Origin: Pseudomonadota bacterium
Lineage (GTDB): Bacteria > Desulfobacterota > Syntrophorhabdia > Syntrophorhabdales > Syntrophorhabdaceae
Direction of reading: 5' to 3'
Assembly (NCBI GenBank): GCA_026388255.1
Contig: JAPLKC010000043.1
Coordinates: forward strand, 1-64,000
Length of the DNA: 64,000 nucleotides
Within the stretch, counting starts at the first letter, position 1, and every line of letters begins with the position of its first letter. The notes beneath the pieces were generated by a model. The model did no database searches and was not told where the DNA came from. It saw only the letters and a list, made by a program, of their open reading frames with translations. The position numbers were made by a program, and so were the translations under genes. This document shows positions 12,839 to 60,030 of this stretch, one piece after another.

Positions 12839-12934
12839 GGAAGTGCCAAGGCGCCTGGTGGGTCTCCTGGTCTTCAAAACCAGTGCACGGGTGTAGAGCC
12901 CGTGGGTGGGTTCGATTCCCATGCACTTCCGCCA
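12839..12934 (+). tRNA. selC: tRNA-Sec (anticodon TCA)
   Basis: 96 bases including an encoded CCA. The acceptor stem has 8 pairs (GGAAGTGC with GCACTTCC), as expected for selenocysteine tRNA. The anticodon arm CTGGT-CTTCAAA-ACCAG carries TCA at 12874-12876, a long variable arm pairs CACGGG with CCCGTG, and the T loop is TTCGATT. This reads UGA as selenocysteine with SelA, SelB and SelD, none of which is in this window. yedF at 53 kb fits the same trait. Confidence 0.96.
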
Positions 12935-42383: not shown

Positions 42384-42692
42384 TTCTGCACCTTTTTAAA
42401 TTAAATTATCCTATATTTACTAACAGTTATTAACATAAAATGCAAGAGTAATATTTAACAAGCTACCAAATATTATAGGCATCTAATACGGTCAGCCAAG
42501 GCAGTAAGAGAAATATTTATCAAGCAGATATTATTTTTTGTAGCTTCCTTATACCTAATATATCCTGCCGGGAAGCATGTTGATATAACCTGGTAGCTTA
42601 TATTTAGCTGGTAAGGGAAATATAAAGCAATAGAACGTGGGGGCTCTCTGCGTAATGGCTTAAACATGCTTCTATATAATTCTAAATTAGAA
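42384..42692. other. Intergenic region between tRNA-Ala and rex
   Basis: About 310 AT-rich bases. AAGCTACCA (near 42465) and TGGTAGCTT (near 42591) form a 9-bp inverted repeat about 115 bases apart. No coding frame, and no riboswitch that I can recognise. Confidence 0.4.
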
Positions 42693-42767
42693 TGGTGGAG
42701 GTGGCGGGAATCGAACCCGCGGCCCTCTCGTTGCGAACGAGATGCTCTCCCGCTGAGCTACACCCCC
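42693..42767 (-). tRNA. tRNA-Ala (anticodon CGC)
   Basis: 75 bases with encoded CCA. The acceptor stem GGGGGTG pairs with CACCTCC and contains the G3-U70 wobble, the alanine identity element. Anticodon arm TCTCG-TTCGCAA-CGAGA gives CGC, which reads GCG. Normal D and T arms. It lies between rex and the response regulator gene. Confidence 0.95.
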
Positions 42768-42841
42768 ATCTTTAAACCACAATGTGATTATATTATTTTA
42801 TATGTGTTTCAATATCAAGATATTTATTGCCTGTTAAGCCG

Positions 42842-43204
42842 TTAATTAATGCCCAGAAGCCTTTTTATCGTTAGTTTCATCTCGCTCATGTCTGCAGATT
42901 TCACCACATACGCATCTGAAACCCAGCTTGAAAAATCCTGTTTAAACTCTCCGTAAGCTGAGCATAAAATTACAAGCTGATCCTTGTTCAGGTTTTTAAT
43001 TTCGTTCAATGCTTGTATTCCATCCATTCCGGGCATTTTTATATCCATCACAATTAAATCAAACCTTGCACCTTTCACTTTTTCAATCGCTTCGAACCCG
43101 TTTGAAGCGATCTCTATCTGGTATCCCTCTTCCTCGAGCTCTTCCTTAAAAAGAAACCGTATATTATCTTCGTCATCCACAACCAATATTCTTATCGCAT
43201 TCAT
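42842..43204 (-). CDS. Single-domain response regulator
   Basis: 120 aa receiver only: acidic pair in ILVVDDEDNIR, phospho-acceptor Asp in DLIVMDIKMPGMDG, LILCSAYG switch Thr/Ser, and a KSADM lysine. No output domain, so it acts by phosphotransfer or protein contact. Its start overlaps the histidine kinase stop by 4 bases. Confidence 0.93.
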   Translation of the reverse strand: MNAIRILVVDDEDNIRFLFKEELEEEGYQIEIASNGFEAIEKVKGARFDLIVMDIKMPGMDGIQALNEIKNLNKDQLVILCSAYGEFKQDFSSWVSDAYVVKSADMSEMKLTIKRLLGIN

Positions 43205-44940
43205 AAAAACTCCTCTTTTATTGTATTTTCTTTTAAAGGGAGGTAAACAAAGAACGTGACGCCTTTCCCTGCCATATTTTTTATTTCAATTCTTCCGAGA
43301 TGGTTCATAATGATTCTGTTTGATATGGCAAGACCTAAACCTGTACCTTTTTCTTTAGTTGTAAAAAAAGGATTAAATATATTATCTATAACTGCCGGGT
43401 CTATCCCGCCCCCAGTGTCAGTTATGGAAACAACCAGAAAGGGATCGTCGTCCAGCACGGTCTGTTCTGTTTGTATGGTTATTTTTCCAAGACCATGCAT
43501 GGCTTCGTAAGCGTTCACTATTATGTTTATAAATACTTGCTTAATCTGTTGAATATCACACAATATCGTCGGAAGATTGTTGTCGGTTTTTTTGTCTATT
43601 TCTATTTTCTCCCATGTCGGAACAGATGAAAAAAGATAGAGGATCTCGTCAATACAATCGTTCATATTGCACGTTTCTCTGGGGGCATGCGTTTCTTTTA
43701 CATAATCAAGGATTTCGTTAAGAACAGCCTCAAGCCTCGAAACCTCTTTTATAATTATATCCACATACCTGTTCTCTGTCCGGTCCAAAGACAACTTCTT
43801 CGCAAGTCTTTTCGCAAAGCCGCCTATGATTACAAGCGGATTTTTTATCTCGTGGGCAATATTTGCAGTCATCTCGCCAAGACTTCTGAATTTTTCCTGT
43901 TCTATCAGTCTTTTCTGTGCATTATTTAATTCCTCTATTACATTCCTTAGCTTCAAATTCAATAAAGTGTTTTCAAACCCGTTTGTTATATAATTTACTA
44001 TGGTATTAACAAGGTATTGCCCGCTTTGCTCTAAGGTAAAATTTTGTTGCGATTTTGTCCCGCCTATCGTTATTATTCCTATGACTCTATCTCTTGACAC
44101 AATAGGCATCGAATACATGGAAAAACTTATCGGCGGCATATCACCCTGATCTAATAAATGATTCTTTATGATAACTGCGCTTTTCTGCTGCACTGCCTCT
44201 TTCTCAAGTCTGTTGACATGGTTTTCCGTTGCAGGGTCTATTTCGCCGTAGGTAATTCTTTCTAAATCAAACTTAAGGAAAGCATGCTCCAGCTTAATCG
44301 TAACAAATGTTGCATTCAAGGCTTTTGCTACAATCAATCCGATGTTTTTAAAAAGCGTATGGGGTTCTGTGTTCGATGTCAGAAGCTTGCCAAGCTCAGA
44401 AAGAGTTACAAGCTCACTGATCCTTTTTTTAGAAGAGATAAGCATTTCGTTAGTCTTTAAAACCCCTCCAATTTCTCTTGAAATTATGGATAAAAGGATT
44501 TTTTCCGAATCGTGTATGAATTCCCTGGTCGAAGAGCATGTCACCAGCACACCATAAAGATAGCTGTCATCGGTCAGAGGGTGAAAAGAAAACGTCTTAT
44601 ATTTCTCAATACACCCGTCAAGCTCAGGATAAAAAAGACAACCAAACCTCAAAGGAATGTCTCTCTTTGAAAAATATTGGGGCATTCTTTTTTGTGCTAT
44701 ACTGCCAATTATGCCCTCACCGATATGGCATCTGTACATGCAAAGTATTTTAAATAAAAGGCTTTTCTGGTTCATATATTTACATGTAAGCCTTCTGTCC
44801 TCGTCGTAAGTAAAGACAATCGCTTCATCAAAATACATTTCCTTTGCTATAATGTTAAGGATTGCGTTAATTCTCGATATTATTTCGAGGTTTGAGTGGG
44901 ATATTTCAATAATTTTTCCAAATAAATCAACGGGATTCAT
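43201..44940 (-). CDS. GAF-domain sensor histidine kinase
   Basis: 579 aa from the ATG at 44940. N-terminal GAF-like domain (about 15-165), second GAF (about 180-325; ends VNTIVNYITNGFENTLL), coiled coil, HisKA with NIAHEIKNPLVIIGGFAKRL, then HATPase (DTGGGIDPAVIDN, GTGLGLAISNRI). No membrane segments, so it senses a cytoplasmic signal. It overlaps glgA by 14 bases and the receiver gene by 4, so the pair may tune glycogen metabolism. Confidence 0.9.
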   Translation of the reverse strand: MNPVDLFGKIIEISHSNLEIISRINAILNIIAKEMYFDEAIVFTYDEDRRLTCKYMNQKSLLFKILCMYRCHIGEGIIGSIAQKRMPQYFSKRDIPLRFGCLFYPELDGCIEKYKTFSFHPLTDDSYLYGVLVTCSSTREFIHDSEKILLSIISREIGGVLKTNEMLISSKKRISELVTLSELGKLLTSNTEPHTLFKNIGLIVAKALNATFVTIKLEHAFLKFDLERITYGEIDPATENHVNRLEKEAVQQKSAVIIKNHLLDQGDMPPISFSMYSMPIVSRDRVIGIITIGGTKSQQNFTLEQSGQYLVNTIVNYITNGFENTLLNLKLRNVIEELNNAQKRLIEQEKFRSLGEMTANIAHEIKNPLVIIGGFAKRLAKKLSLDRTENRYVDIIIKEVSRLEAVLNEILDYVKETHAPRETCNMNDCIDEILYLFSSVPTWEKIEIDKKTDNNLPTILCDIQQIKQVFINIIVNAYEAMHGLGKITIQTEQTVLDDDPFLVVSITDTGGGIDPAVIDNIFNPFFTTKEKGTGLGLAISNRIIMNHLGRIEIKNMAGKGVTFFVYLPLKENTIKEEFL

Positions 44941-46384
44941 GCTTCTCAATAGCTTTTTTATAGAGTCCCATATATTCCTTTGCCGACCTTTGCCACGAGA
45001 AATCCTCGCTCATACATCTTTTTATAAGAGAAATCCATGTGCTTTTGTTTTCGTAAACTTTTAACGCCCTTTTTATTGTATCAAGCATTTCTTTTTTTGT
45101 GTAATCGTAGAATTTAAATCCTGTGCCGCGTTCAGGTTCTTTTGTATAATCCGTAATTGTATCCTCAAGCCCGCCCACACCCCTTACAACAGGAACGGTG
45201 CCATATCTGAGGCTGTACAACTGGTTTAAGCCGCACGGTTCATATCTTGACGGCATAAGAAACATGTCCGCGCCTGCCTCAATTAAGTGTGCAAGCTTAT
45301 TATCGTAGGCTATTTTCAATGAAAATGATTTCGGAAACTTTTTGGATAATTCCGTAAAAAGATCATGATATTTTCTCTCCCCTGTTCCAAGAATTATATA
45401 TTGTGTCCCAAGTGAGAGCATTTCTTCAAGGGAAGATGCTATTAGATCAAAACCTTTCTGGTCGGCAAGTCTTGATATGGTGCCGATCAGCGGGATGTCC
45501 TCGGCCACCGGGAGCTCAAATACTTCCTGGAGCAATGCTTTGCATATTTTTTTGTTTGTCGTGTCCTTGTTGTCATAATGAGCAGGGATATAGGGATCTT
45601 TTTCTGGACTCCAGTCTTCATAATCTATCCCGTTTATTATACCGTAAAGGTCTGATTTCCTTGTCTGCAATACACCGTCAAGGCCGAAGCCAAACTCCGG
45701 TGTCTGTATTTCCTCGCTGTATTTCCTGCTTACTGTGTTGATTATGTCCGAAAAAACTATACCCCCCTTTAAAAAGTTGATATTACCGAAAAATTCAAGG
45801 TAATCGGGCGCAAAATACTCCCAGCCTACATTCAAAAGATGCATATCATATTGCCAGAAAACTCCCTGGTATCCAAGGTTGTGGATAGTAAACAGACTTG
45901 CAATATTTTTTAAAACCGGCTCATCTTTGTACAATGTCTTTAAAAACATCGGCGCAAGGGCAGTTTCCCAATCGTTGCAATGCAATACATCGGGCACAAA
46001 CCCTGTTACCTTTATTGCCTCAAGGATGCTTTTTGAAAAAAAGATAAATCTTTCAGCGTTATCAAGGTAGTCTCCATCAGGTGTGCTGTACAGATAATCT
46101 CTGTAATAATACTCATCTTTCTCCACAAGATATGCGGTAACACCATCATACTCGGTCAACGCAATCTCTCCGTCAATGTATCCCTGAGATATAGGGCACG
46201 AAAATTTGTAGTTTTTATATTTAATTGGAAATCCTTGCTCTTCAATTCCTTTGTGCTTCGGTAGTATTATTCTCACATCAACGCCTAATTTTTTCAGCGC
46301 CTTCGGGAGCGAGCCCGTCACATCAGCTAGACCGCCGGTCTTAATGAACGGAAAAACTTCAGGAGATGCTATTAAAACATTCAT
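44927..46384 (-). CDS. glgA: Glycogen synthase, ADP-glucose type
   Basis: 485 aa GT5 enzyme adding glucose from ADP-glucose to glycogen. N-terminal KTGGLADV (15-22) binds ADP-glucose; GLNQLYSLRYGTVPVVRGVGG near the C-terminus is the acceptor/donor motif with Glu/Gly typical of GT-B synthases. Full length. Nine bases follow galT. It is upstream of the sensor kinase in the same operon. Confidence 0.94.
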   Translation of the reverse strand: MNVLIASPEVFPFIKTGGLADVTGSLPKALKKLGVDVRIILPKHKGIEEQGFPIKYKNYKFSCPISQGYIDGEIALTEYDGVTAYLVEKDEYYYRDYLYSTPDGDYLDNAERFIFFSKSILEAIKVTGFVPDVLHCNDWETALAPMFLKTLYKDEPVLKNIASLFTIHNLGYQGVFWQYDMHLLNVGWEYFAPDYLEFFGNINFLKGGIVFSDIINTVSRKYSEEIQTPEFGFGLDGVLQTRKSDLYGIINGIDYEDWSPEKDPYIPAHYDNKDTTNKKICKALLQEVFELPVAEDIPLIGTISRLADQKGFDLIASSLEEMLSLGTQYIILGTGERKYHDLFTELSKKFPKSFSLKIAYDNKLAHLIEAGADMFLMPSRYEPCGLNQLYSLRYGTVPVVRGVGGLEDTITDYTKEPERGTGFKFYDYTKKEMLDTIKRALKVYENKSTWISLIKRCMSEDFSWQRSAKEYMGLYKKAIEKHESR

Positions 46385-46393
46385 ATTACCCCC

Positions 46394-47395
46394 TTAAACA
46401 TTTGTTTCTTTAAGGTATGCCGTAGCTTCTTCCGGTGGTGTTGGGTTGATATAGAAGCCTGTTCCCCATTCAAACCCTGCCATTTTTGTCAGTCTTGGTA
46501 TAATCTCCATATGCCAGTGGAAATAAGGCATATCGCCAAAGCCCGATGGCGTTGTGTGAAGTATGTAGTTGTATGGAGGTGAATTAAGTGCTTTGTCATA
46601 CTTTTTTAAAACAAGAGAGGTAATCTCTGAAATTGCATAATAGTTATCATCTTTTTCGTGCTGATCAAAATAGGCCTCGTGCTTCTTCGGCAGCACCCAG
46701 ACTTCAAAAGGGAATCGGGCAGCATATGGGGAGAGCGCTATGAACTTGTCGTTTTCCATAACAACTCTAACATTATCTTCTTTTTCCTGTGTAATAATGT
46801 CACAAAAAATGCATCTGTCTTTATATTTAAAGTATGCCAGTCCGCCATCGATTTCTTCCGAAACCTTTTTAGGAACAATAGGGAGCGCTATAAGTTGTGA
46901 GTGTGAGTGGTCGAGAGATGCCCCTGCAATAGAACCGTGATTCTTAAATACCATTATATACTTAAACCGTTTATCATTTGCAAGATCCAGCATTCTTTCC
47001 CTGTAAGCTACAAAAACTCTCTGTATTTCGTGCGCATCCATTTTTGATAAAGTTTGTCCATGTAACGGGGTCTCTATAATAACCTCATGTGCCCCTAATC
47101 CGTTCATTTTGTCGTAAAGGCCAATCCCTTCTTTGTCAAGCCCTCCTTCAATTCTTAATGCCGGAAATTTGTTCGGAACAACCCGCAGTATCCAGTTCGG
47201 GCTATTGGACTGGGACAAATGCGGCCTTATAGCATAGACTTCAGGAGGTGTCATATTTTCATTGCCTTGGCAAAGCGGGCACATCCCTGCTTTCTGGGGA
47301 GGGTTTTCCTCTGTAAGAAAAACAGGTCTTTTCCCCCTTTCTGTTGATATGATAACCCATCTGCTAGTAATAGGGTCTTTTCTTAATTCGGGCAT
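46394..47395 (-). CDS. galT: Galactose-1-phosphate uridylyltransferase (GalT/GalT-like)
   Basis: 333 aa HIT-superfamily nucleotidyltransferase. The active-site text is LDHSHSQLIALPIVP (H-S-H-S-Q), and a zinc site is suggested by CPLCQGNE near the start with C-terminal FHWHMEII. It moves UMP between glucose-1-P and galactose-1-P; relatives in bacteria act as ADP-glucose phosphorylases, so in front of glgA that alternative is worth noting. First gene of the glg operon. Confidence 0.9.
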   Translation of the reverse strand: MPELRKDPITSRWVIISTERGKRPVFLTEENPPQKAGMCPLCQGNENMTPPEVYAIRPHLSQSNSPNWILRVVPNKFPALRIEGGLDKEGIGLYDKMNGLGAHEVIIETPLHGQTLSKMDAHEIQRVFVAYRERMLDLANDKRFKYIMVFKNHGSIAGASLDHSHSQLIALPIVPKKVSEEIDGGLAYFKYKDRCIFCDIITQEKEDNVRVVMENDKFIALSPYAARFPFEVWVLPKKHEAYFDQHEKDDNYYAISEITSLVLKKYDKALNSPPYNYILHTTPSGFGDMPYFHWHMEIIPRLTKMAGFEWGTGFYINPTPPEEATAYLKETNV

Positions 47396-47470
47396 ATGTT
47401 AAACCTTTCCGCTATATTTTTATGCTGTTGCTTTTGACTTGGCTTGCAACAAATGGTAAGAAATACGTTA

Positions 47471-48145
47471 ATGATACCCTTAAAAGATAATATTCCAACG
47501 CGCATCAAACCCATTATAACAACAAGTATTATCTTTGTAAATATATTAATTTTTCTTTGGCAGAGGCTTTCCCTAACCTCTGTTGAAAGCAATAACATAT
47601 ATAAATATTATGGGCTGGTTCCACATGATTTTTTCATGGCTTTTACAAGCAAATACGAACTGCTTCCTTACAACGTGTTAACTGTTTTTACATCCATGTT
47701 TCTTCACGGGGGATTTATTCACCTTGGCGGGAACATGTTGTATCTGTGGATTTTCGGCAACAACATCGAGGATTCCATGGGACACGGACGATTTATTTTC
47801 TTTTATATTTGCTCAGGCATTGCCGCAGCTCTTTTTCAGCTTCTGTATGATCCGTCCTCGGCTGTCCCGATGATCGGTGCAAGTGGCGCTGTATCCGGTA
47901 TTCTCGGTGCATATCTGTTGCTTTTTCCTCATGCGCGCATAAAAACTCTGATATTCATATTAATATTCATAAAGGTCGTTGAACTTCCGGCCGTTGTGCT
48001 TCTTACCATATGGTTTTTTATACAACTTGTTTTCTCTCAAACAGAAGGTATTGCCTGGTACGCCCATATAGGTGGGTTTATTTTCGGGCTGATAACGATT
48101 AAGATGTTCACATCAAAAAAAGTGACAAAACGGCGTTTCACGTGA
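47471..48145 (+). CDS. Rhomboid family intramembrane serine protease
   Basis: 224 aa from the ATG at 47471 (MIPLKDNIPTRIKP is the usual family start; the frame is open further upstream). About six transmembrane helices. Catalytic Ser in GASGAVSG and His in AHIGGFIFG form the rhomboid dyad, with HGGFIHLGGNMLYLWIFG before. It cleaves substrate proteins within the membrane. It overlaps the radical SAM gene by 4 bases and diverges from galT. Confidence 0.9.
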   Translation: MIPLKDNIPTRIKPIITTSIIFVNILIFLWQRLSLTSVESNNIYKYYGLVPHDFFMAFTSKYELLPYNVLTVFTSMFLHGGFIHLGGNMLYLWIFGNNIEDSMGHGRFIFFYICSGIAAALFQLLYDPSSAVPMIGASGAVSGILGAYLLLFPHARIKTLIFILIFIKVVELPAVVLLTIWFFIQLVFSQTEGIAWYAHIGGFIFGLITIKMFTSKKVTKRRFT

Positions 48146-49485
48146 AACGTTTAAAGGCTCTTCTTATTAATCCGTATATTTATGATTTTTCAGCATACAG
48201 CTACTGGTCAACCCCGCTTGGCTTGTTATATCTTGGCAGTGTTTTAAGAAAAAACGGCATGGAAATAAAACTTATTGATTGTCTCAGGGTGGAGGAAAAT
48301 AAAAGAAAAGAGGACGGAAGGGCACCTTTTATAAAGGAAAGGGTTAATAAGCCTCAACCATTGAAAGGCATAAGAAAAAGATTAAAAAGATACGGCATCT
48401 CAAAAGAAGTCTTAATAAAAGAGCTTTCTTCGGTGGAAAGTCCGGACCTGATTCTTATTACTTCGATCATGACATACTGGTATGCCGGCGCAAAAGAAGT
48501 ATCCGATGCGACAAGAAACTTATTTCCCGGGGCCAAAATTGTGATTGGCGGTATTTACCCTTCATTGTGTTATGAGCACGCCTTAAAGGCAATGACAAGC
48601 GCTGATCTTATTGTTAAAAATAACGAAATAAACAGCTTTTACGGCTTTATAGAGAAAGAGTTAACTACCGCGCTATCTTATAAGCCCGATATGTACGATC
48701 TTGATAATCTCCCCTATCCGTGTTTTGATTTGTATTACCATATCCCCTTTGTCCCCTTGCTTACGTCTTACGGGTGTACTTACAAATGCACATACTGTGC
48801 AACACCATATATGCATCCGAATATAGTACGAAGGAAACCGGAAAGCACTGCAGATGAGATTTTATTCTGGCATAACTACGGTTTAAATAGTTTCGTAATC
48901 TATGACGACAACTTTCTGTTTAATAAAGAGCTGTTTGCAAAACCCTTGCTTAGACATATTATAGAACTTCCCTTTCCCGTTAAAATATATAATCCCAATG
49001 CCCTGAATGCTGCACTGGTAGATGAAGAATTGGCCTTTCTTCTTCTGGGGGCAGGGTTCAAAGACATAAGGATAGGACTTGAGACGGTTAATCCTCTTAT
49101 TCAGAAATCAACCGGTGGAAAAGTGAATCCGAGGACATTTGAAAATGCCTTGAGCTGTCTGATTAAAGCAGGGTTTCCTGCCAGTACAATCAGTATCTAC
49201 ATGCTTGCCGGCCTGCCTTTTCAGAAGTGGGAAGATGTGAAAACAACCATAGATTATATTACGGATTTCGGTGTACGGGCACATATTGCAGAATACACAC
49301 CGATTCCACACACTTCTATGTTTGACGAATTTAAATCTTTTGCCCGTTACCCTTTGACAGATGATCCGGCGTACCAGAATAATGCCCTGTTTCCCTTTGC
49401 ATGGCAGGGATTTACAGAAAATGACCTGATGTTTTTAAAACAATATGCAAGAGAAAAGAACGCCAATGTTGATAAAACGGATTAA
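48142..49485 (+). CDS. B12-binding-like radical SAM protein
   Basis: 447 aa. N-terminal cobalamin-binding-like Rossmann region (LLINPYIYD, LGLLYLGSVLRKNG, IVIGGIYPSL) without an obvious B12 histidine loop, then a radical SAM barrel with the cluster motif CTYKCTYC (TSYGCTYKCTYCATPY) and GLETVNPLIQKSTGGK. Such proteins carry out methylations or ring rearrangements. The start GTG overlaps the rhomboid stop by 4 bases. Substrate unknown. Confidence 0.9.
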   Translation: MKRLKALLINPYIYDFSAYSYWSTPLGLLYLGSVLRKNGMEIKLIDCLRVEENKRKEDGRAPFIKERVNKPQPLKGIRKRLKRYGISKEVLIKELSSVESPDLILITSIMTYWYAGAKEVSDATRNLFPGAKIVIGGIYPSLCYEHALKAMTSADLIVKNNEINSFYGFIEKELTTALSYKPDMYDLDNLPYPCFDLYYHIPFVPLLTSYGCTYKCTYCATPYMHPNIVRRKPESTADEILFWHNYGLNSFVIYDDNFLFNKELFAKPLLRHIIELPFPVKIYNPNALNAALVDEELAFLLLGAGFKDIRIGLETVNPLIQKSTGGKVNPRTFENALSCLIKAGFPASTISIYMLAGLPFQKWEDVKTTIDYITDFGVRAHIAEYTPIPHTSMFDEFKSFARYPLTDDPAYQNNALFPFAWQGFTENDLMFLKQYAREKNANVDKTD

Positions 49486-49511
49486 ATGATGTTAAATTCT
49501 AAATCAAGCAC

Positions 49512-49593
49512 GCGAGAGTGGCGGAATTGGCAGACGCACTGGACTTAGGATCCAGCGGGTTAAACCGTAGGGGTTCAAATCCCCTCTCTCGCA
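49512..49593 (+). tRNA. tRNA-Leu (anticodon TAG)
   Basis: 82 bases, class II. The acceptor stem GCGAGAG pairs with CTCTCGC; anticodon arm CTGGA-CTTAGGA-TCCAG gives TAG. It has a long variable arm (GGGTTAAACCGTAGG) and T loop TTCAAAT. No CCA is encoded. Confidence 0.95.
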
Positions 49594-49785
49594 AATAATA
49601 AAATCTTAAAGTTGTTTTTCATGCTGACAAAATTTTCTAAACTTTAAAAATATTTTTGCTTATTTTTAAGAAATTTTTGCACCTTCAAATTTCATCGCTG
49701 TTGAAAAAATACGGCATTATCCATATAAAACCATATCCACCCTTCATAATTTGCGCTACAGCCCATTTTTAGCAAATAAAGGTTG

Positions 49786-49920
49786 GTGACCGGTTTAAAA
49801 TTTCAAGACATTGTGGACATGGACCCAAAGCGAGCAGAATGGATGTTTTTTGCCGGAACGACAAAAAGACTTATTCATCTTATTGGTGTAACCAACCATG
49901 AAACGTTTTTTGATCCATGA
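49786..49920 (+). CDS. Possible small protein of 44 aa
   Basis: GTG start with AGG six bases upstream (aaaggttg); frame reads VTGLKFQDIVDMDPKRAEWM and on to FDP then TGA. Codons look like coding DNA (charged and hydrophobic residues mixed) but I recognise no family. It could be a fragment or a genuine small gene. The rest of the 49594-50016 gap is AT-rich and has nothing clear. Confidence 0.3.
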   Translation: MTGLKFQDIVDMDPKRAEWMFFAGTTKRLIHLIGVTNHETFFDP

Positions 49921-50016
49921 TAAAAAAGCGATTAGGGATTCACGTACCAGTTATTTTTTTAGTGCAAACAGGATTGTATTTTTTCGTACATTCCTTTATG
50001 CTAATAGCGGTTTCAA

Positions 50017-50811
50017 ATGAAAGGGCGGAAAAAAAGTTTTTCAAAGATAATAAAGGTTGTTTTTCTTATCGTCGTTTTTGCTTTCATTACCGGCGCAGGC
50101 TATTATTTTGTCTTCCCCGATATATCAAGGATGAAAAAGGAGAACCCGGGTAAGACATCTTTTATGGAGTACCGTGAAAAAGAATGGGAAAACAAAGGTA
50201 AAAAACTGAAGATTCGGAAAAAATGGGTTTCCCTGTCCAATATATCTCCCTACCTTATCAAGGCAGTAATTATTGCAGAAGATGACAAATTCTGGTCACA
50301 TCATGGGTTTGATGTAGAGGCTATTCAGAAGGCGCTTGAAAAGAATATTGAGAGGGGGGCATTTAAAGTTGGTGGAAGCACCATTAGTCAGCAGCTTTCG
50401 AAAAACCTCTACCTTACCCCGGCAAGGAACCCCATGCGGAAGTTGAAAGAGGCGGTCCTGACCTGGAGAATAGAGAGGACGCTCTCTAAGAGGAGAATCC
50501 TTGAACTTTACCTCAACGTGGCAGAATGGGGCGAAGGCATATTCGGGGTTGAAGCAGCATCGCTCCATTATTATGGTAAGCCTGCATCAGCCTTGAGCCC
50601 GGAAGAAGCTGCCAGACTTGCCGTTGTACTCCCAAACCCGAGGAAACTCCGTGTTGACGGGGAGTCGCGCTATGTTGAAAGGCGTGCAAAAATCATCTAC
50701 GACATTATGGTAAAACGGGGCATAGTTATACCTGAATACGAAGATGTAATGCAAAATCTCTCTGAAGAAAAATCCATAAATAATATTCCCGCTGTAAACG
50801 GTAAGCCATGA
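50017..50811 (+). CDS. mtgA: Monofunctional peptidoglycan glycosyltransferase
   Basis: 264 aa. One N-terminal membrane anchor (about 8-30) and a GT51 catalytic domain: first catalytic Glu in AVIIAEDDKFWSHHGFD, then GGSTISQQLSKNLYLTP, RNPMRKLKEAVLTWRIER and LELYLNVAEWGEGIFGVEAA. It polymerises lipid II in the periplasmic face of the inner membrane. No transpeptidase domain. Confidence 0.93.
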   Translation: MKGRKKSFSKIIKVVFLIVVFAFITGAGYYFVFPDISRMKKENPGKTSFMEYREKEWENKGKKLKIRKKWVSLSNISPYLIKAVIIAEDDKFWSHHGFDVEAIQKALEKNIERGAFKVGGSTISQQLSKNLYLTPARNPMRKLKEAVLTWRIERTLSKRRILELYLNVAEWGEGIFGVEAASLHYYGKPASALSPEEAARLAVVLPNPRKLRVDGESRYVERRAKIIYDIMVKRGIVIPEYEDVMQNLSEEKSINNIPAVNGKP

Positions 50812-50833
50812 ACTGTGGACAGGTTTTATTATA

Positions 50834-52702
50834 ATGCTTATAGTTACAGGCCTTTCAAAAACATACGGCAGACAGGTTCTCTTTGACAATGTCTCCTTTT
50901 CGGTAAATCCTGGCGAACGTATCGGCCTCACCGGGAGAAATGGTTCGGGCAAGACAACGCTCTTCAGGCTCATACTTGGCGAGGAAGAACCTGATTCGGG
51001 CGATGTCGGTATCCCTAACGGATATACAATCCAATATCTCTCCCAACATATCAATTTTACTAAAAGCTCTGTCCTGGAAGAGGCTTGCCTGGCGTTGAAG
51101 GTTGCCGAGGATGGCAGGGATGAGGCCTACAGGGTAAAATCCATTCTCTCCGGCCTTGGTTTTTCTCCGGGCGAATTTCACCGGAACCCATATCATTTAT
51201 CGGGCGGTTTCCAGGTACGCCTGAATCTTGCAAAGATATTGGCCTCGGGGCCGAACCTCCTGCTTCTTGACGAACCCACAAACTACCTCGACATTGTGTC
51301 GGTGAGGTGGCTCATACAATTTTTGCGGATATGGAAAAATGAGCTAATCCTTATTACACATGACCGTGCGTTTATGAATAGCGTGACTACCCACACAATG
51401 GGCATTCACAGGCAAAACATCCGCAAGATTGCAGGTTCAACGGAAAAACTATATCAGCAGATACTCCAGGATGAAGAGGTTTACGAAAAGACCCGGGTAA
51501 ATGATGAGAGAAAGATAAAAGATGTTGAGCTTTTTGTTAACCGGTTCAGGGCTCAGGCATCGAGGGCAAAGGCTGTCCAGTCAAAGGTAAGGATGCTTGA
51601 GAAAAGGGAAAAGCGTGAGAAATTGACAGAACTTCCTGAACTTGATTTTACCTTTAACTCGGCGCCATTCCCCGGAAAATGGCTTGTAGAGGCTGATAAT
51701 GTATCATTTTTCTTTTCAGAAGATGTTCCTCCTCTGATTCATGCCTTTCGGGTTGCCATTAAAAAAAATGACCGTATCGCTATTATCGGTAAGAATGGAA
51801 AGGGTAAGACAACCCTGCTAAACCTGCTTGCGGGTGAGTTTCAACCTAAGCAAGGCGAAATCAGATACAACCAGAATCTGAAACTTGCCTATTTCGGACA
51901 GACTAACGTCGCGAGGCTTGATCCGGACAAAACAGTACTCGAAGAAGTGCTCAACGCCCACCCGGCCCACAGCCTTGGTTCTGCAAGGGGCATCTGCGGG
52001 TCAATGATGTTCGACGGCGACAACGCGTTGAAAAAAGTTGCTGTTCTGTCCGGCGGCGAAAAGAGCAGGGTGTTGATAGGAAAGCTTCTTGTAAGTCCCG
52101 CAAACCTGATTCTACTTGACGAGCCTGACAACCACCTTGACACCGAGTCAATAGACTCTCTCATAGAAGCAATCGACACATTTACAGGGGCTGTCCTCTT
52201 TGTAACTCACAGCGAAATGATACTCAGGGCAATCGCGACAAAGTTAATTGTCTTTGACAATGGGAAAATAAGTATCTTCGAAGGCACATACGACGATTTT
52301 CTCGAAAGGATCGGCTGGGAAGACGAAAAAACGATCACAAAGGCGAATAATGGAAAGACGATAGAATCTCAGAATAAAGGGGCAAGCAGGAAGGACTTGC
52401 GGCGGGTGCGTGCCCGTTTGATCGAAAGCCGCTCAAAAGTATTAGGGCCACTCCAGCAAGAGATTGAAATACTTGAAAAGGCTATAACAAAACTGGAAAA
52501 CCGGATAGAAGACGACAACCAAACCCTTATCCGTGCGTCTAACGTGGGTGACGGAAAGACAATCACATCACTTTCGATCTCTATTCACAACTCAAAGATA
52601 GAGATAGAACGGCTTTTTGATGATTTGGACAGGCTTACCGGTGAACATCACAGAAAATCAATGGAATTTGAGGAACAATTTAACGAATTGAACGGAACGT
52701 AG
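50834..52702 (+). CDS. ABC-F family ATP-binding protein
   Basis: 622 aa with two nucleotide-binding domains and no membrane part. Walker A GRNGSGKTTLFRLI and GKNGKGKTTLLNLL, signatures LSGGFQVRL and LSGGEKSRV, Walker B LLLDEPTNYLD and ILLDEPDNHLD. A linker of about 80 residues joins them, and a C-terminal coiled coil (about 540-620) completes the Uup/EttA pattern. Such proteins act on the ribosome in translation, not in transport. It begins 22 bases after mtgA. Confidence 0.93.
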   Translation: MLIVTGLSKTYGRQVLFDNVSFSVNPGERIGLTGRNGSGKTTLFRLILGEEEPDSGDVGIPNGYTIQYLSQHINFTKSSVLEEACLALKVAEDGRDEAYRVKSILSGLGFSPGEFHRNPYHLSGGFQVRLNLAKILASGPNLLLLDEPTNYLDIVSVRWLIQFLRIWKNELILITHDRAFMNSVTTHTMGIHRQNIRKIAGSTEKLYQQILQDEEVYEKTRVNDERKIKDVELFVNRFRAQASRAKAVQSKVRMLEKREKREKLTELPELDFTFNSAPFPGKWLVEADNVSFFFSEDVPPLIHAFRVAIKKNDRIAIIGKNGKGKTTLLNLLAGEFQPKQGEIRYNQNLKLAYFGQTNVARLDPDKTVLEEVLNAHPAHSLGSARGICGSMMFDGDNALKKVAVLSGGEKSRVLIGKLLVSPANLILLDEPDNHLDTESIDSLIEAIDTFTGAVLFVTHSEMILRAIATKLIVFDNGKISIFEGTYDDFLERIGWEDEKTITKANNGKTIESQNKGASRKDLRRVRARLIESRSKVLGPLQQEIEILEKAITKLENRIEDDNQTLIRASNVGDGKTITSLSISIHNSKIEIERLFDDLDRLTGEHHRKSMEFEEQFNELNGT

Positions 52703-52737
52703 CGCCCTGGTAAAGACATGAAAAGCATGGAACTGCC

Positions 52738-52971
52738 TTATGGTAAAAGTTCTCGTATCTCGCTTATGCGGATGGTTGATTCGAGAGCATCTATGATCGC
52801 GTCCTTCTGCTCAGGAAGGAAGCGCAGGCAGACTCCGCAGTCAGAGCTTATGCTTCGCGGTACCGGAATGAGCTTGTGAGGTATGCCTGCTTTTTTGAGT
52901 ATCTTCTCTGCCTTCATCGCGTGGCTTACCGAGTCGAATAAGGCCACGCAATAGTTTCTATCATCTTTCAT
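52738..52971 (-). CDS. DUF3343 domain protein
   Basis: 77 aa. It starts CVALFDSVSHAMKAEKILKK and has ...IPHKLIPVPRSISSDCG followed by CLRF, as in DUF3343. Members are often encoded beside yedF in selenium-using bacteria; function unknown. The start overlaps the yedF stop by 4 bases. Confidence 0.8.
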   Translation of the reverse strand: MKDDRNYCVALFDSVSHAMKAEKILKKAGIPHKLIPVPRSISSDCGVCLRFLPEQKDAIIDALESTIRISEIRELLP

Positions 52972-53585
52972 GGCTTGATGATCCTTCCCGCCGTTGAAAG
53001 AGCCCCTGCAATGTCATACATATTTGATATGCTCCCTGCACCGATTTTATTGGTCAGATTAAAAAAGTTTGCGCAGGCGCCGCATATCAGGAGCTTCACG
53101 CCCTTTTCCTGAAGCGCTAACAGGTCATCAATAACATCAGAGTCGGAAGCTGTAAACTTTACGCCGGTATTATAAAAAATCATGATATCCGGCCCATAAT
53201 CCAGATCAACAGCAGTGTGTATGAAGGCCTTCATGAGGACAGCGCCCAGATCATCGTTTCCATGTCCCATGACGTTTGATGAAATGACAAACACCGTAGG
53301 CCCATGCGCAGAAGTCGGCGTATCTTCGGGGCGCCGGCACACCGACGGCGCATCTCCTCCAGCCTGTCTATTCTGTTGTTTCTTAATGTGTATCCTGAAA
53401 ATACCGCCGGGTTCCTCCGTCATGTCAACTGCACAGCCTGAACTTGCGGCAAGGCGATTCACGTTTTCTCTTGCAGTCTCGTTATCTACAATAACAGTCA
53501 CTTCATCGTGCAAATTCAAAGCCTTCTTTGCGAGAACAACCGGTTCAGGGCATGCAAGCCCCTTTGCATCAATTAATTCCGACAT
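52968..53585 (-). CDS. yedF: Sulfurtransferase-like selenium metabolism protein YedF
   Basis: 205 aa. N-terminal TusA/SirA domain (DAKGLACPEPVVLAKKAL; the CPEP Cys is residue 11) fused to a DsrE-like C-terminal domain (FVISSNVMGHGNDDLGAVLMKAF; LLICGACANFF with Cys pair). This fused form is a marker of the selenium-utilisation trait, linking the site to the tRNA-Sec at 12.8 kb. It probably handles a sulfur or selenium group on cysteine. Forms an operon with the DUF3343 gene. Confidence 0.88.
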   Translation of the reverse strand: MSELIDAKGLACPEPVVLAKKALNLHDEVTVIVDNETARENVNRLAASSGCAVDMTEEPGGIFRIHIKKQQNRQAGGDAPSVCRRPEDTPTSAHGPTVFVISSNVMGHGNDDLGAVLMKAFIHTAVDLDYGPDIMIFYNTGVKFTASDSDVIDDLLALQEKGVKLLICGACANFFNLTNKIGAGSISNMYDIAGALSTAGRIIKP

Positions 53586-53652
53586 GTTTTCCTCCTTATT
53601 GCTGCAAGGGTTGAGAGTATTGTACCGGCGATTTCTTCTGATTTATTCATTC

Positions 53653-54942
53653 TCAAAAGAGGTTCATTTGTTTATGTGCCCTGTCCTTTGCCAGTTCATA
53701 CCTTAAAGGTTTGTTTCTTTTAACAATCAAGCCATTATCTATTGCCTGTTTTAACCAGACCTTCATCCGGGTCTCTGTTATATTGAATTTTTCATGGAGC
53801 CCTTCTGATTCCAGGGGTCCATTGGCCAGCATTAGTTCAAGCTTCAAACAGAAAACATCATACAATGATTTATCCTGCCATTCTTTGCTTGCTGTCTTGT
53901 CTCCCTTCATGTCGTCAGAGAGAAGGTCTTCCTCCGTCCCTGAGTGATATATTGTTTGCTGTTCAGTCACGCTTTGCCCGATATTTTGTTCAGCCAACCC
54001 CTTGTCAATGTTCTTCGGTTTTAATATTGCATTCAAATTACTTTCGAATATTTCTTTCGGTAACCATTTGCCGCCACGCTGAACTATTAAAGAGTTGCCG
54101 GAATATTTGCCGGTGCTCCACTTAACCCAGACAGGCGCCCACCCCTTTCTCAAATTCTCCAGAGCCCCATTCCATGTTCCGCCTGTTGTTCCCGAATGAA
54201 CGACAATTGTTGCGTCGGAAATGCAATAGATATACTTGTTGCGGGCCATTGCGTTTCCTGCATTAAACCCTGCCTCCGGGTAAAATGGTGAGATAAGGAC
54301 GAGATTCTGTTGTTTCAGTGCAGCTCTGTATTTCTGTGAGAATACCGCTTTAAAAAGGTTGTCGGCCAGAACTCCGATAACTGTTCCATCCCTTTCAAGA
54401 GCAGAAAGCATGGCAGCCTCGTCAATACCACGGGCTCCGCCGGACACGACCGATCTTTCCGAATCAACCAGTTTTTTTCCGAGGGTGCGGGCAAAGTCCA
54501 GATCCTCATTGTCGGCATCTCTCGATCCTACAACGCCAATGCAGCTTGAATTTAATAACCTTTTATTCCCGCATCCGAACAAAACCGGGGGAGAATGATT
54601 TTTAAGTCGCTCTTTCAAGAGTCCGGGATATTCACTATCTGAACGCACTAAAACCCAGATTCCAACCCGCTGCCATTTTTCAACAGCAAGAGCGAGGGCT
54701 GTTCCCCGATTCAACAAATATTGAATTCTTTCTATAGAACATTTTTCATTCTTCCAGCCATAGAAAAGTTCCACGGGGTCACCTGTCAATAAATCTCCTA
54801 TTTGCAAGCCCTTATCGTTAAACCAACCGGAAAGGATGTTCCACTCACTGATGTTGAGCGGCTCAGGGTCTCCTTTTCCCGGTTTACTTATATGTGTTGT
54901 TAAAAGAAGAACTACCTGTGTATTGCTCGATATTTTCGTCAT
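53653..54942 (-). CDS. DprA-like DNA-processing protein
   Basis: 429 aa. A Rossmann domain with the DprA motif SGGARGID (about 165-172) inside SCIGVVGSRDADNEDLDFAR... is complete, including NKYIYCISDATIVVHSGTTG and a C-terminal winged helix. The 100 residues before the Rossmann fold and the acidic tail (about 320-360) are longer than in transformation DprA. It follows the RecQ-fusion gene by 4 bases, which argues for joint function, perhaps in phage defence or DNA uptake. Confidence 0.85.
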   Translation of the reverse strand: MTKISSNTQVVLLLTTHISKPGKGDPEPLNISEWNILSGWFNDKGLQIGDLLTGDPVELFYGWKNEKCSIERIQYLLNRGTALALAVEKWQRVGIWVLVRSDSEYPGLLKERLKNHSPPVLFGCGNKRLLNSSCIGVVGSRDADNEDLDFARTLGKKLVDSERSVVSGGARGIDEAAMLSALERDGTVIGVLADNLFKAVFSQKYRAALKQQNLVLISPFYPEAGFNAGNAMARNKYIYCISDATIVVHSGTTGGTWNGALENLRKGWAPVWVKWSTGKYSGNSLIVQRGGKWLPKEIFESNLNAILKPKNIDKGLAEQNIGQSVTEQQTIYHSGTEEDLLSDDMKGDKTASKEWQDKSLYDVFCLKLELMLANGPLESEGLHEKFNITETRMKVWLKQAIDNGLIVKRNKPLRYELAKDRAHKQMNLF

Positions 54943-54946
54943 TCCC

Positions 54947-57055
54947 TTATCTCCCCGCAGTCGTCGCTAATGCTAATGGATAAACCTTTGTGCAACCAGC
55001 TTTCCTTAAAAGCGCGCCTGTCACTGTCAGGGTCCATCCTGAATCTACAATATCATCAACCAGCAACGCAGGAGCCTTTGGAACCTGATTCCGTATTTCA
55101 AAAACACCATCAAGATTACGGCATTGGTAGAAGCGGTTATTTTTCAATTTCTGCGGTTCGTTCTTTTTGATTTTTTCAATAACAGGCAAAAAGGGGATTT
55201 GCAGCTTCGATGCAACCCGGCGTGCGAAATCGGGCGCCAGTTCGGGGTGGATTAAAGACGGCACGCATGTTACCCATAAAGGAACCGGTGCAGGTCTCCA
55301 TCTCTCAGAAACCATCTTTGCAACAGCATCAACGAGAATATCATCGAAATGCCCTGCATTTTTATTGGTAATTACCACATGACCCCAACCGGCATCGCCC
55401 CATCGTGCCAGGATACGCCCGGGTTCCGATGCAAGACCCTGTTTTTCAAATTTTCCATGAAATCCATAGATTGGAAATGCATCTTTCAGGATCAGCTTCT
55501 TCGGCTCCAGTATTATCTCCCCGTGGCGAAGAAACTCCGCTGCCGATACACCGAGAATACGAGAGCATTCCAAAGGTAACGCAATGTCCGGCCTGCAGTT
55601 TGCACATTTTCCGCAGGAACTATCATCAGGATCATTTAATGCATTACGAAGAAATTTCATCAGGCAGTCCTTGCTGTCGATATATTGCTGGACCTCTTCC
55701 CACTCATGTAATCGTTGACCTGTGAGAAAAGCGACTCGTTCCTTATCTATATCATAATTGGATGTTGTCCTGAACCACTTACTTCCTTCCTTTATTACAG
55801 GCGCCGGATTATCAACCCGAAGAATTTTTAATACATGCTCGATCTGTGATTGCCTCAAATTGACCTTTCCCTGCAATTCCTGAATAGACAGTCCATCAGA
55901 ATCATCCAGTATGTTCAATATCTTTTTAACGTGATTTTCATCCGGAAAGGCCGATTTCCAGAAATACTCATGAATTTCATGGTCCTCCTCCCCGGAAAGC
56001 AATACCCCGTATGCATGCTTAATTGCCCGGCCTGCCCTGCCTACCTGCTGATAATATGCGACAACTGAGCCGGGAGATTGAAAATGAATTACAAAACCGA
56101 GATCAGGCTTGTCGTACCCCATGCCAAGAGCAGTAGTGGCGACAAGGGCTTTCAAATCGTTCCGCAGAAGCCTTTCTTCGAGATTTTTGCGGTATGCGTC
56201 TGAATCAGGAAAATCAGGGTGTTCTACATCCGAATGATACGCTGCAGCGACAATTCCGTTCCTTTGAAGCCAGCTCGCCACTATTTCTGCATCGCGTTTC
56301 GTGAGGGTATAAACGATGCCGGTTCCGTGTAAGCGAGGAATCTGCTCTGCAAGCCAGGCAAGTCGTGCAGCCTGGTCTTTCAATCGTATATTCTGCAAGG
56401 TAAGGCTTTCCCTTATGAGCGGTCCTCGTACTAACAGAATGTCGCCGAGTTGATTTTTAATATCAAGAATAACTCTGTTATTGGCGGTCGCAGTTGTACC
56501 CAATACGGGCATGTTGGGCGGCATCTGTTGTAACACGCTGACAATTCTCCGGTAATCAGGGCGGAAGTCGTGCCCCCAATCTGAAATACAATGAGCCTCA
56601 TCTATCACCAGAAGCCCGAGGCGCTGACCAACCGGCATGAGAATATCTTTTATGAAATCGTCATTCGACAGTCTTTCGGGAGATATAAGCATTACATCTA
56701 CCTGATTATCAAGCATCTGATCTTTAACCGATTTCCATTCATCCTGATTCGTCGAATTTATTGTAACAGCACGAATCCCGATTCTTTCCGCCGCGGTAAT
56801 CTGATTCCGCATAAGCGCCAACAACGGCGAAATGATAACTGCAGGACCCTGCCCCCAGTCCCGGAGTATTTTAGCGCTTATGAAATAGACAATGCTCTTG
56901 CCCCATCCTGTACGCTCAACCAATAGTATTTTCTTACGATTATGGATTAAAGCGTCTATGGTTTCCCACTGACCGTCACGAAAACCGGCTGTTTCATCAT
57001 CCAGGGCTGTTCTGAGAAGTTTTGTGGCATTTTCTTTTGTCCAGACAGGTTTCAT
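54947..57055 (-). CDS. RecQ-type DNA helicase fused to a C-terminal phosphoribosyltransferase domain
   Basis: 702 aa. Superfamily II helicase: Walker A VERTGWGKS, DEAH in LLVIDEAHCISDWGHDFRPDY, TTATANNRVI and QVGRAGR. A zinc-binding cluster (CGKCANC near 505-510) follows. After that comes an uncharacterised region, then a PRTase domain (about 590-702) with the PRPP loop LLVDDIVDSGWTLTVTGALL, as in ComF-like proteins. Helicase residues and PRPP motif are intact. Operonic with the DprA-like gene. Confidence 0.88.
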   Translation of the reverse strand: MKPVWTKENATKLLRTALDDETAGFRDGQWETIDALIHNRKKILLVERTGWGKSIVYFISAKILRDWGQGPAVIISPLLALMRNQITAAERIGIRAVTINSTNQDEWKSVKDQMLDNQVDVMLISPERLSNDDFIKDILMPVGQRLGLLVIDEAHCISDWGHDFRPDYRRIVSVLQQMPPNMPVLGTTATANNRVILDIKNQLGDILLVRGPLIRESLTLQNIRLKDQAARLAWLAEQIPRLHGTGIVYTLTKRDAEIVASWLQRNGIVAAAYHSDVEHPDFPDSDAYRKNLEERLLRNDLKALVATTALGMGYDKPDLGFVIHFQSPGSVVAYYQQVGRAGRAIKHAYGVLLSGEEDHEIHEYFWKSAFPDENHVKKILNILDDSDGLSIQELQGKVNLRQSQIEHVLKILRVDNPAPVIKEGSKWFRTTSNYDIDKERVAFLTGQRLHEWEEVQQYIDSKDCLMKFLRNALNDPDDSSCGKCANCRPDIALPLECSRILGVSAAEFLRHGEIILEPKKLILKDAFPIYGFHGKFEKQGLASEPGRILARWGDAGWGHVVITNKNAGHFDDILVDAVAKMVSERWRPAPVPLWVTCVPSLIHPELAPDFARRVASKLQIPFLPVIEKIKKNEPQKLKNNRFYQCRNLDGVFEIRNQVPKAPALLVDDIVDSGWTLTVTGALLRKAGCTKVYPLALATTAGR

Positions 57056-57248
57056 AGATCCTCGGCTACAATTTGATGTCGCACTTGGCTTTGTGTAATA
57101 TTGGTTTTTCCTCGCAAATATTTTGCCATTTAAGATAGTAGAGTGTCAATTTATCAAATGTCAAAACTTGCCTATACCTCCTTAAAGTTCAATGTTTTTT
57201 TGATTGCCCTTAACTATGGGCGATTTCGGAGAAATACAATCAACAGTA

Positions 57249-57307
57249 ATTCACTATTCACTGCTTTTTTCACATTTTCTGCTTTTTAACTATTCACTAT
57301 TCACTGC
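57249..57307. repeat. Heptad-type direct repeats left of the parB-like gene
   Basis: ATTCACTATTCACTGC occurs at 57249-57264 and again at 57292-57307. The TTCACTA heptamer repeats inside it. A third perfect copy is at 58359-58374, beyond the other side of the gene. Confidence 0.8.
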
Positions 57308-57312
57308 CCCTC

Positions 57313-58242
57313 TCACACTTGTGGTGGTCTTTTCTTACCGTATGGAGCCATGGGCGCCTGTTGTTGTACAAAATCACAGAAAACCTGTAGTTCATAAAGA
57401 AACTTTTCAATATCTTCCCTCAAATAGGTTCCAAGGCCCGTCTCAAAGGTTGTTTTTATTGATACAAGACTTTTAACCTGTTTTTTCATGGATTTGGGCT
57501 TTGTGTTGCTTGAATCCGGCTCGACCTTCTTGTATGCGGTAAGCATCCTTTCTAATGTGGCATTGGTCACCGGTGTTTTTATGACAGCATCGAATATCTT
57601 CATACGATCTGGGCATTCGAGGTTTGCGGCAAAGAGATATCCTTGAGAAACCGGGAGGTTTTCTGCAGAAATTGCGGCCTGAATTTCAGGAGAAAGTTTT
57701 AAAAGTGAAATCGTGCGGAACAAAGTAGGATAAGACTTTGCAGAGATTTCGATAATTGCGTTCACAGTGAACGCAATTGGTTCTGGGAGGTCCTCTGGTC
57801 TCCGGTTATACATCACCAAATCGCTCATCACCCCGTTCACATCATACCCTTTATCAGGATGTTTTGCCTGAATAAAAGAGAGTATCCCTTTAGCCTGATC
57901 TATGGGATTCAAGTCCTCCCGTTGGAGGTTCTCTGTAAGTTGAAGGGCTATGGTATCACCTAATTCTTTGCCTGCTTCAATAACTCTAACCGGTACGGAT
58001 TCAAGTCCGAGTTGCCGGGCTGCAACGAGACGTCTCTCCCCGCAGATAAGTAAATATGTTCCGTCGTCCTGTCCTGTTACAATAAGAGGCTCCAGGATGC
58101 CCTTATCTTTGATGGACTGCACAAGCGATTTGAATGATTCTGTTTCAATATTGATGCTTGACCTAACCTGTTCCAATACCACGATGTTTTCTACGGGAAT
58201 GTACAAAAACTCTGGATTTACAGTTGTTTTCTTTGTTACCAT
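57313..58242 (-). CDS. ParB-like nuclease/partition-domain protein
   Basis: 309 aa. N-terminal ParB/Srx fold: VENIVVLEQVRSSI, LICGERRLVAARQLGLESVP (GERR box) and LQLTENLQREDLNPIDQAKG. The rest is helical with no clear KorB or HTH motif and a basic segment (KPKSMKKQVK). No parA neighbour, so it may be a free-standing regulator or plasmid-derived nuclease. A repeat pair flanks the gene. Confidence 0.82.
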   Translation of the reverse strand: MVTKKTTVNPEFLYIPVENIVVLEQVRSSINIETESFKSLVQSIKDKGILEPLIVTGQDDGTYLLICGERRLVAARQLGLESVPVRVIEAGKELGDTIALQLTENLQREDLNPIDQAKGILSFIQAKHPDKGYDVNGVMSDLVMYNRRPEDLPEPIAFTVNAIIEISAKSYPTLFRTISLLKLSPEIQAAISAENLPVSQGYLFAANLECPDRMKIFDAVIKTPVTNATLERMLTAYKKVEPDSSNTKPKSMKKQVKSLVSIKTTFETGLGTYLREDIEKFLYELQVFCDFVQQQAPMAPYGKKRPPQV

Positions 58243-58648
58243 AGTGTTCTCCCTCTTTGAAATTCAGTGAATCTCCCGTCAAGCGAGAGCAGGCGTCGTA
58301 AGTAGATAGTGAATAGCCATAACCTATTCACTGCCATCATCACTATCCACCATTCACCATTCACTATTCACTGCCTTTAATCCCCCTTGATGTCGCTATT
58401 TATTGTAGGTATTTAGAAACAATGTGTCAAGATGTTTCCGATTTTTCTGCGTGGCATACTGGCGACCCTGTGCTCCCCTGCGTCGAACAAATTAGTTGGG
58501 AATATGTTTTATTAAAATTATTAGATTCACCTACCTACAAGTCGTAGTATACGGCATTTTGTCAGTGATCATGGATTACTGATTGAAATGCGTAATAAAC
58601 CCATAGTCGAACACATGTTTAATACATCAAGGATTAATCCTTTCTTGA
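58243..58648. repeat. Intergenic repeat block right of the parB-like gene
   Basis: A 9-bp hairpin AGTGAATAG-CCATAAC-CTATTCACT lies at 58308-58332, then several TTCAC(C/T)A heptads and the 16-base direct repeat at 58359-58374. The remaining ~270 bases have no coding frame that looks real. Confidence 0.65.
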
Positions 58649-59503
58649 CTAAAGGTTGCCGAATACTTCGAGTTTCATCATATTTTTTCCATTATGTTTT
58701 ACAGAGTACATAATTGTGTCGGGTATGTTGATCATCTCATCAACCGAGTCTGGCGGTTTTAGGTAAATAACAATACCAATGCTGAAGGTTACGGGCCAGC
58801 CGTTCTTTTTCATGGCCTCCAAGAGGTTATCACAAATCTTGTTGATGAATGTCCGGACAGATGCTTCATTGCCTGTTTCCGGAAAGATTATAGCGAACTC
58901 GTCGCCCGAAAGCCTTGCAAAAACATCTGTAACGCGCAAATTGACACGTAGTGTATCGGTGACTGTTCGTAATAGGTTGTCACCGGCTATGTGTCCAAAG
59001 TTATCATTGATTAATTTGAAGTTGTCGAGATCGATGTATGCAACGGTAAACGGATGTTTGTATCTAAGTGCTCTTTTCATTTCTGAATCTGCGAATTCGT
59101 AAAACTGTCTACGGTTCATAGCTCCCGTCAAGGCGTCTGTCCTGGAAAGGGTTTTTTCATGATCAAGTGCACCCTTCAAGGCAGATAAAAGATATGTAAA
59201 GGCAATAAAGGTTAGTGATATTACTATGGTGTTCCAGTAAAAAATGACTTGGTGTGAGTAGTTTGCTATCAAAAACCAAGCAAGAAACCATACTACAGAA
59301 CCGACAAGTGACATAAGAAGGCCAATTTTATTCCCACCATACCATGTTGCCATAAAAATGGGAATCAAATAGAATAATATGATTGAGATCTCTGCGCCGC
59401 TTATATAATCAATAAGGCCGATTAATATCGTCAGCAAAAGGCTCAGAAGAAAGATAAATGATCTGGAGCGTTTTTGAAGGTATTCAGGCAAGCGGATTAA
59501 CAT
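58649..59503 (-). CDS. Membrane-bound diguanylate cyclase (GGDEF domain)
   Basis: 284 aa. Five or six hydrophobic segments (about 15-110) with a short coiled link, then GGDEF: DALTGAMNRRQFYEF, DLDNFKLINDNFGH and the active site LSGDEFAIIF (SGDEF, a tolerated variant of GGDEF). An RxxD inhibition site is not clear. It makes c-di-GMP from two GTP in response to an unknown membrane signal. Confidence 0.9.
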   Translation of the reverse strand: MLIRLPEYLQKRSRSFIFLLSLLLTILIGLIDYISGAEISIILFYLIPIFMATWYGGNKIGLLMSLVGSVVWFLAWFLIANYSHQVIFYWNTIVISLTFIAFTYLLSALKGALDHEKTLSRTDALTGAMNRRQFYEFADSEMKRALRYKHPFTVAYIDLDNFKLINDNFGHIAGDNLLRTVTDTLRVNLRVTDVFARLSGDEFAIIFPETGNEASVRTFINKICDNLLEAMKKNGWPVTFSIGIVIYLKPPDSVDEMINIPDTIMYSVKHNGKNMMKLEVFGNL

Positions 59504-59682
59504 TTTACCTCACATAACTATTTGAAGATTACCATTTAAAATCTTACACAGTTTCCAAATTTTATCAAGTGAGGAAGGAACGTTGCGTTTCAGGCAAAAC
59601 TGCGATGGCTTGACCCCGGGAAGGCATTCCTTGAGAATTTCAAAGTTGCCAATTACCTTAATCAAACATTGCTCACAGCCTG

Positions 59683-60030
59683 TCACCCCTTCTTAACCGG
59701 CTCCACATCCACCTCGCCTCCGAAGGCATCGAGGAGGGCATCGTTCAGCTTCTTTATATCCTCTTCATTTTCCAACACGATGACCAATTCCCTGTCATCC
59801 AGCACCTTTAATTTTCCAAACTTTTTTACCACATCTATAACCTGCTGCGGGTCCGTTGTAACCCACCTCTTCATCCGGCGGACAAGTTCCTCGCCATTAA
59901 ATGCCCTCTCAATCGTAAGGTCCACCCTCCTTCTTTTTGCTTCCCAACCGACAAGGGCCGGCTGCGCAACCATGGGGGTAACGGGGTCATGCATTGCCGC
60001 ACATCTGAACCATAGCTTAGCCCTGACCAT
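59683..60030 (-). CDS. Conserved hypothetical protein, 115 aa
   Basis: Start set at the ATG at 60030 with AGGAG upstream; the frame is open further 5' but without a ribosome site. Begins MVRAKLWFRCAAMHDPVTP and ends with KKLNDALLDAFGGEVDVEP. Basic N-terminus and acidic alpha/beta C-terminus, no membrane segment. I cannot name the family. It diverges from the J-domain gene. Confidence 0.6.
   Translation of the reverse strand: MVRAKLWFRCAAMHDPVTPMVAQPALVGWEAKRRRVDLTIERAFNGEELVRRMKRWVTTDPQQVIDVVKKFGKLKVLDDRELVIVLENEEDIKKLNDALLDAFGGEVDVEPVKKG

Follow-up and report, generated by a model that had tools for sequence, protein, structure and literature searches.

A psyrT-psyrA operon in a variable genomic segment

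The window analyzed here is a stretch of 64,000 nucleotides from contig JAPLKC010000043.1 (GenBank assembly GCA_026388255.1). It contains two adjacent minus-strand genes, encoding a fusion of a RecQ-type helicase with a phosphoribosyltransferase (PRTase) and a DprA-like protein, respectively. In the direction of transcription, psyrT is the first gene and psyrA the second. Their placement and the 4-base spacing, as described in an earlier note on this DNA, are confirmed by the ORF coordinates. The following features are relevant.

53604 to 59687, no strand: variable segment with psyrTA, a ParB-like gene, and a GGDEF gene, delimited by blastn of the window against contig C16 of a same-genus genome (G001:C16) and by the ORFs of that stretch
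54947 to 57055, minus strand: psyrT (rqlH), putative toxin of 702 aa with a RecQ-type SF2 helicase core, a RecQ zinc region, and a C-terminal PRTase domain
53653 to 54942, minus strand: psyrA (rqlI), putative antitoxin of 429 aa with an N-terminal helical region, a DprA/SLOG Rossmann domain, a disordered linker, and a winged-helix domain
54943 to 54946, minus strand: operon junction, a gap of 4 bp between the psyrT stop and the psyrA start, from ORF coordinates
57313 to 58242, minus strand: stand-alone ParB_N/HTH gene adjoining psyrT, with about 40 matches in the genome
57290 to 57306, minus strand: short repeat CAGTGAATAGTGAATAG flanking the ParB-like gene, with further matches at 57247 to 57263 and 58357 to 58373

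Pfam models for DEAD, Helicase_C, and Pribosyltran match PsyrT, together with a weak RecQ zinc-binding match, and DNA_processg_A matches PsyrA. All catalytic motifs that had been reported as intact could be located in one of the two proteins: GWGKS (residue 50), DEAH (152), QVGRAGR (337), and DDIVDSGWT (667) in PsyrT and SGGARGID (167) in PsyrA. PsyrT also has four RecQ-type Cys residues (464, 481, 484, and 487). Most residues of the Walker, DEAH, and PRTase motifs are invariant across an 18-row family alignment of toxins, which comprises the window protein, an Escherichia coli homolog, and 16 others. By alignment columns read by eye, K53 and D152 of the window PsyrT correspond to K49 and D148, the helicase residues mutated in the study of E. 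coli RqlH (PMC4670107). The equivalent of the RqlH DIVD motif is present as well, so that these helicase and PRPP-binding residues are intact in PsyrT.

The predicted structure of PsyrT (pLDDT 86) resembles RecQ catalytic cores. In the AlphaFold2 model of PsyrA (pLDDT 88), a core extending to about residue 308 is followed by a disordered linker (about 311 to 348) and a confidently modeled winged helix (about 350 to 420), which represents a C-terminal HTH; the best PDB matches of this model are E. coli ShosA and DprA proteins. The earlier note had ascribed to PsyrA a long acidic tail that might act in partner control. However, the last 129 residues carry a net charge near -1 to -2 (20 D/E and 19 K/R), and 12 of 78 PsyrA relatives (including L003, L021, L034, L042, L053, and L057) are short forms of 277 to 343 aa that end before the winged helix. 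The idea of an acidic tail is therefore unsupported, and such a tail is ruled out as a partner-control element by the charge count and the structure model. The short relatives are in keeping with the C-terminal HTH of RqlI, which is dispensable for neutralization in E. coli, its truncation still neutralizing the toxin (PMC4670107). They also make natural antitoxins lacking the winged helix available among the surveyed pairs. Another PsyrA relative (L041:12089-13075) has a degenerate SLOG loop (GSR...SGGARG), and the toxin frame adjoining it is full-length and open.

Assignment to the PsyrTA family

Both proteins match dedicated PADLOC models nearly over their full lengths: PsyrT matches the PsyrT model at positions 5 to 685 of 689 (E = 2.3e-292, 969 bits), and PsyrA matches the PsyrA model at positions 2 to 396 of 398 (E = 1e-141, 470.7 bits). 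Because of these matches we identify the pair as PsyrTA, a name derived from Pseudomonas syringae (Sberro et al. 2013, as cited in PMC8790059 and PMC9122126). Judging from the sequence, it is very probably an intact member of the PsyrTA (= RqlHI) family of toxin-antitoxin pairs, carried as an accessory module of patchy distribution. The locus had been put forward as the best candidate in the window for an undescribed system. With dedicated PsyrT and PsyrA models in PADLOC and published experiments on RqlHI (PMC4670107), this claim has to be corrected: the locus is a routine find of the already described PsyrTA/RqlHI, it is not a new system, and it is here given its proper name. The more general proposal of a toxin-antitoxin or defense-type pair, in which a DprA-like protein partners a PRTase toxin, agrees with the PsyrTA/RqlHI identity.

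Genomic site and neighboring genes

Synteny between the window and the same-genus genome G001 covers positions 42690 to 53603 and resumes at 59688, with 80 to 89% identity (blastn). At the corresponding site, G001 has unrelated genes, transporter-like by inspection, in place of psyrTA and the ParB-like and GGDEF genes; the pair is an accessory insertion that G001 lacks at this position. The window's genome encodes a separate RecQ-type protein (contig C106) and a DprA-type protein (C36), and ComF-like and ComEC genes are located on contigs C78 and C88. The variable site, the patchy distribution, and the presence of separate RecQ, DprA, and com genes fit an accessory element rather than a competence or housekeeping function.

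In base composition the pair does not stand out from the rest of the window, and a recent foreign origin is therefore unsupported. No credible defense match was found among ten neighboring genes, where an ABC-F protein gave generic ATPase matches only, and thus no local defense island was seen. A phage-borne origin was considered and rejected: 28 annotated phage records matched PsyrT by tblastn, none of them covering 80% of the query, and among the matches listed the phage records matched only the helicase half. Elsewhere in the window, a selenocysteine tRNA gene is present at 12839-12934 (plus strand), which indicates that the organism probably makes selenoproteins.

The ParB-like gene adjoining psyrT belongs to a family with about 40 copies or fragments in the window's genome (G000) and 38 in G001, and most other genomes of the host family lack it. 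Many of the copies are fragments that contain stops or lie at contig ends, and tandem and broken copies occur. Among the copies whose flanks were read, the ParB-like family is the only gene family widely shared within several kilobases. There are 27 genomic occurrences of the 15-mer GTGAATAGTGAATAG, compared with 0 for the reversed control, and 13 of them are no more than 300 bp away from a ParB-like copy (hand count). On contig C84, the short repeat flanks a ParB-like gene in inverted orientation. The copies may represent a single-gene family that is proliferating, or a mobile element, without a recognized transposase beside it. As a lead, the ParB-like gene is more unusual than psyrTA and merits separate study.

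Relatives of the pair and their neighborhoods

One scan of genome contigs yielded 80 related loci with 55 to 69% identity over the toxin. Their hosts include Proteobacteria, Bacteroidetes, Acidobacteria, Nitrospirae, Omnitrophota, and others. The psyrA gene directly follows psyrT, in the same order, in 79 of the 80, the remaining locus (L077) ending at a contig edge inside the toxin gene; close spacing or overlap at the psyrT-psyrA junction recurs. Two loci (L040 and L061) have an interrupted toxin frame, with the antitoxin gene still adjoining it. In a sample drawn evenly from the phylum, PsyrT was found in 4 of 297 genomes, and the same four have an adjoining PsyrA. Among related genomes, the window's own is the only one of 60 searched that encodes PsyrT. 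An E. coli plasmid carries a pair with 58% (PsyrT) and 42% (PsyrA) identity, placed between the genes for the specificity and R subunits of a type I restriction system.

The nearest neighbors of the relatives are enriched in restriction and other defense genes. Because PADLOC models overlap, counts of neighbor families are a rough measure of enrichment, with 163 PADLOC families matched at 1e-20 by the nearest neighbors (n = 94) compared with 17 families matched by 70 genes located about six genes away. Type I restriction leads the list (R subunits match 6 and S subunits 5 of the 94 nearest neighbors), and HamA (Hachiman), BrxC, and a TOTE protein each occur as a single nearest neighbor. The survey also provides a broad, well-aligned set of pairs from which test proteins can be chosen.

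Proposed function

The experimental basis for a functional proposal comes from extraintestinal E. coli, in which RqlH, a RecQ-PRTase protein, is toxic in the absence of RqlI and induces the SOS response and filamentation (PMC4670107). RqlH is genotoxic through its PRTase, and most of the toxicity is lost when this domain is deleted or its DIVD motif mutated; RqlI binds and restrains RqlH, the PRTase part being required for binding (PMC4670107). In the literature, syrTA (psyrTA), shosTA, and rqlHI are treated together as systems with DprA homologs as antitoxins (PMC9122126). PsyrTA is listed among phage defense systems, the claim of protection being taken from papers that cite Sberro et al. 2013 and Millman et al. 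2022. A native E. coli PsyrTA gave no detectable phage protection in its test panel (PMC12409345), and a phage role is therefore not to be assumed for every member.

By analogy with RqlHI, from which toxicity, the need for the PRTase Asp residues, neutralization, and binding via the PRTase part are carried over, PsyrT would be the toxin. Its C-terminal PRTase would be genotoxic, would need the PRPP-binding residues of DDxVDSxWT, and would depend on the rest of the protein, whereas PsyrA would bind the PRTase part and keep it inactive. A likely trigger would be phage DNA, or DNA that is otherwise abnormal, encountered by the helicase, by the DprA fold of the ssDNA-binding type, or by both. Once restraint is lost, DNA damage and abortive infection could follow. 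We infer this phage trigger and the abortive outcome for the window's host, as well as the chemistry of the PRTase. As for the latter, the helicase might open DNA while the PRTase adds a phosphoribosyl group to the DNA or to nucleobases on it. We regard this specific reaction as unlikely; phosphoribosyl transfer to DNA has already been raised as an idea for RqlHI (PMC4670107). If true, the toxin would damage DNA by a new kind of chemistry, which could be tested on this locus as on many other homologs. The interest of the PsyrTA family rests on what its PRTase does.

Three other readings of the pair were weighed. It could be a DNA repair or genome maintenance operon, in which the helicase, the PRTase, and the DprA-like protein work jointly on damaged DNA, with toxicity arising as a side effect when they are uncoupled. 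In favor of this, Russell and Mulvey suggested that RqlHI acts cooperatively in a beneficial DNA function (PMC4670107), recombination involves proteins with RecQ and DprA folds, and the helicase motifs of PsyrT are intact. However, the pair is patchy and accessory and sits in a variable site, its relatives adjoin restriction genes, a RecQ-type protein is encoded separately in the genome, and E. coli without rqlHI shows no loss of fitness (PMC4670107); we consider a repair role improbable. Still less can be said for natural transformation, the alternative offered in the earlier note, in which the DprA-like protein and a ComF-like PRTase would handle incoming DNA. Homology to DprA and ComF at the domain level is compatible with it, but PsyrA scores 91 bits on the DprA-specific NCBI model TIGR00732, well below the cut-off of 191, and the relatives adjoin restriction and defense genes. 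The earlier note had named a constant position beside competence genes as evidence against a defense role; no such position was seen, the DprA-type, ComF-like, and ComEC genes being on other contigs and none beside the pair. A role in transformation is thus highly improbable.

The third reading takes the pair as an undescribed variant of ShosTA, whose PRTase toxin has gained a RecQ helicase. ShosA models and the ShosA crystal structure do match the DprA region of PsyrA, and the kinship with ShosTA that had been recognized from the sequence holds to this extent. As a family assignment, however, this reading has next to no probability and is refuted by the PADLOC profile scores and the domain content: the PsyrA and PsyrT models give much stronger matches, which span the full length (for PsyrA, 470.7 bits compared with 96.6 for ShosA, the next best PADLOC model), and the RecQ-PRTase fusion is the defining and already described feature of PsyrT/RqlH. 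Membership in the PsyrTA family, with a toxin-antitoxin role modeled on RqlHI, is the reading that we retain.

Comparison with known systems

The ComFA/ComF and DprA proteins of natural transformation share the helicase, PRTase, and DprA folds with the window pair, but they belong to other families and have other neighbors, and the genome's own ComF-like, ComEC, and DprA-type genes sit elsewhere. ShosTA is closer in that it also combines a DprA-like antitoxin with a PRTase toxin and shares the core fold of the antitoxin; nevertheless, its profile match is much weaker and it forms a separate family. To our knowledge, ShosT has no RecQ helicase, whereas the RecQ core of the window PsyrT is complete. 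RqlHI of extraintestinal E. coli (PMC4670107) has the same arrangement as the window pair, a RecQ-like helicase with a PRTase followed by a DprA-homologous partner with a C-terminal HTH, and the residues mutated in RqlH are also present in the window PsyrT. What sets RqlHI apart is only that toxicity, binding, and SOS induction have been demonstrated for it in E. coli. With PsyrTA, the pair shares both proteins, the domain order, the gene order, the operon spacing, and a full-length profile match. Apart from sequence divergence, no difference in kind from PsyrTA was found, the closest relative found having 68 to 69% identity for PsyrT, and the locus alone adds one more host lineage to the family.
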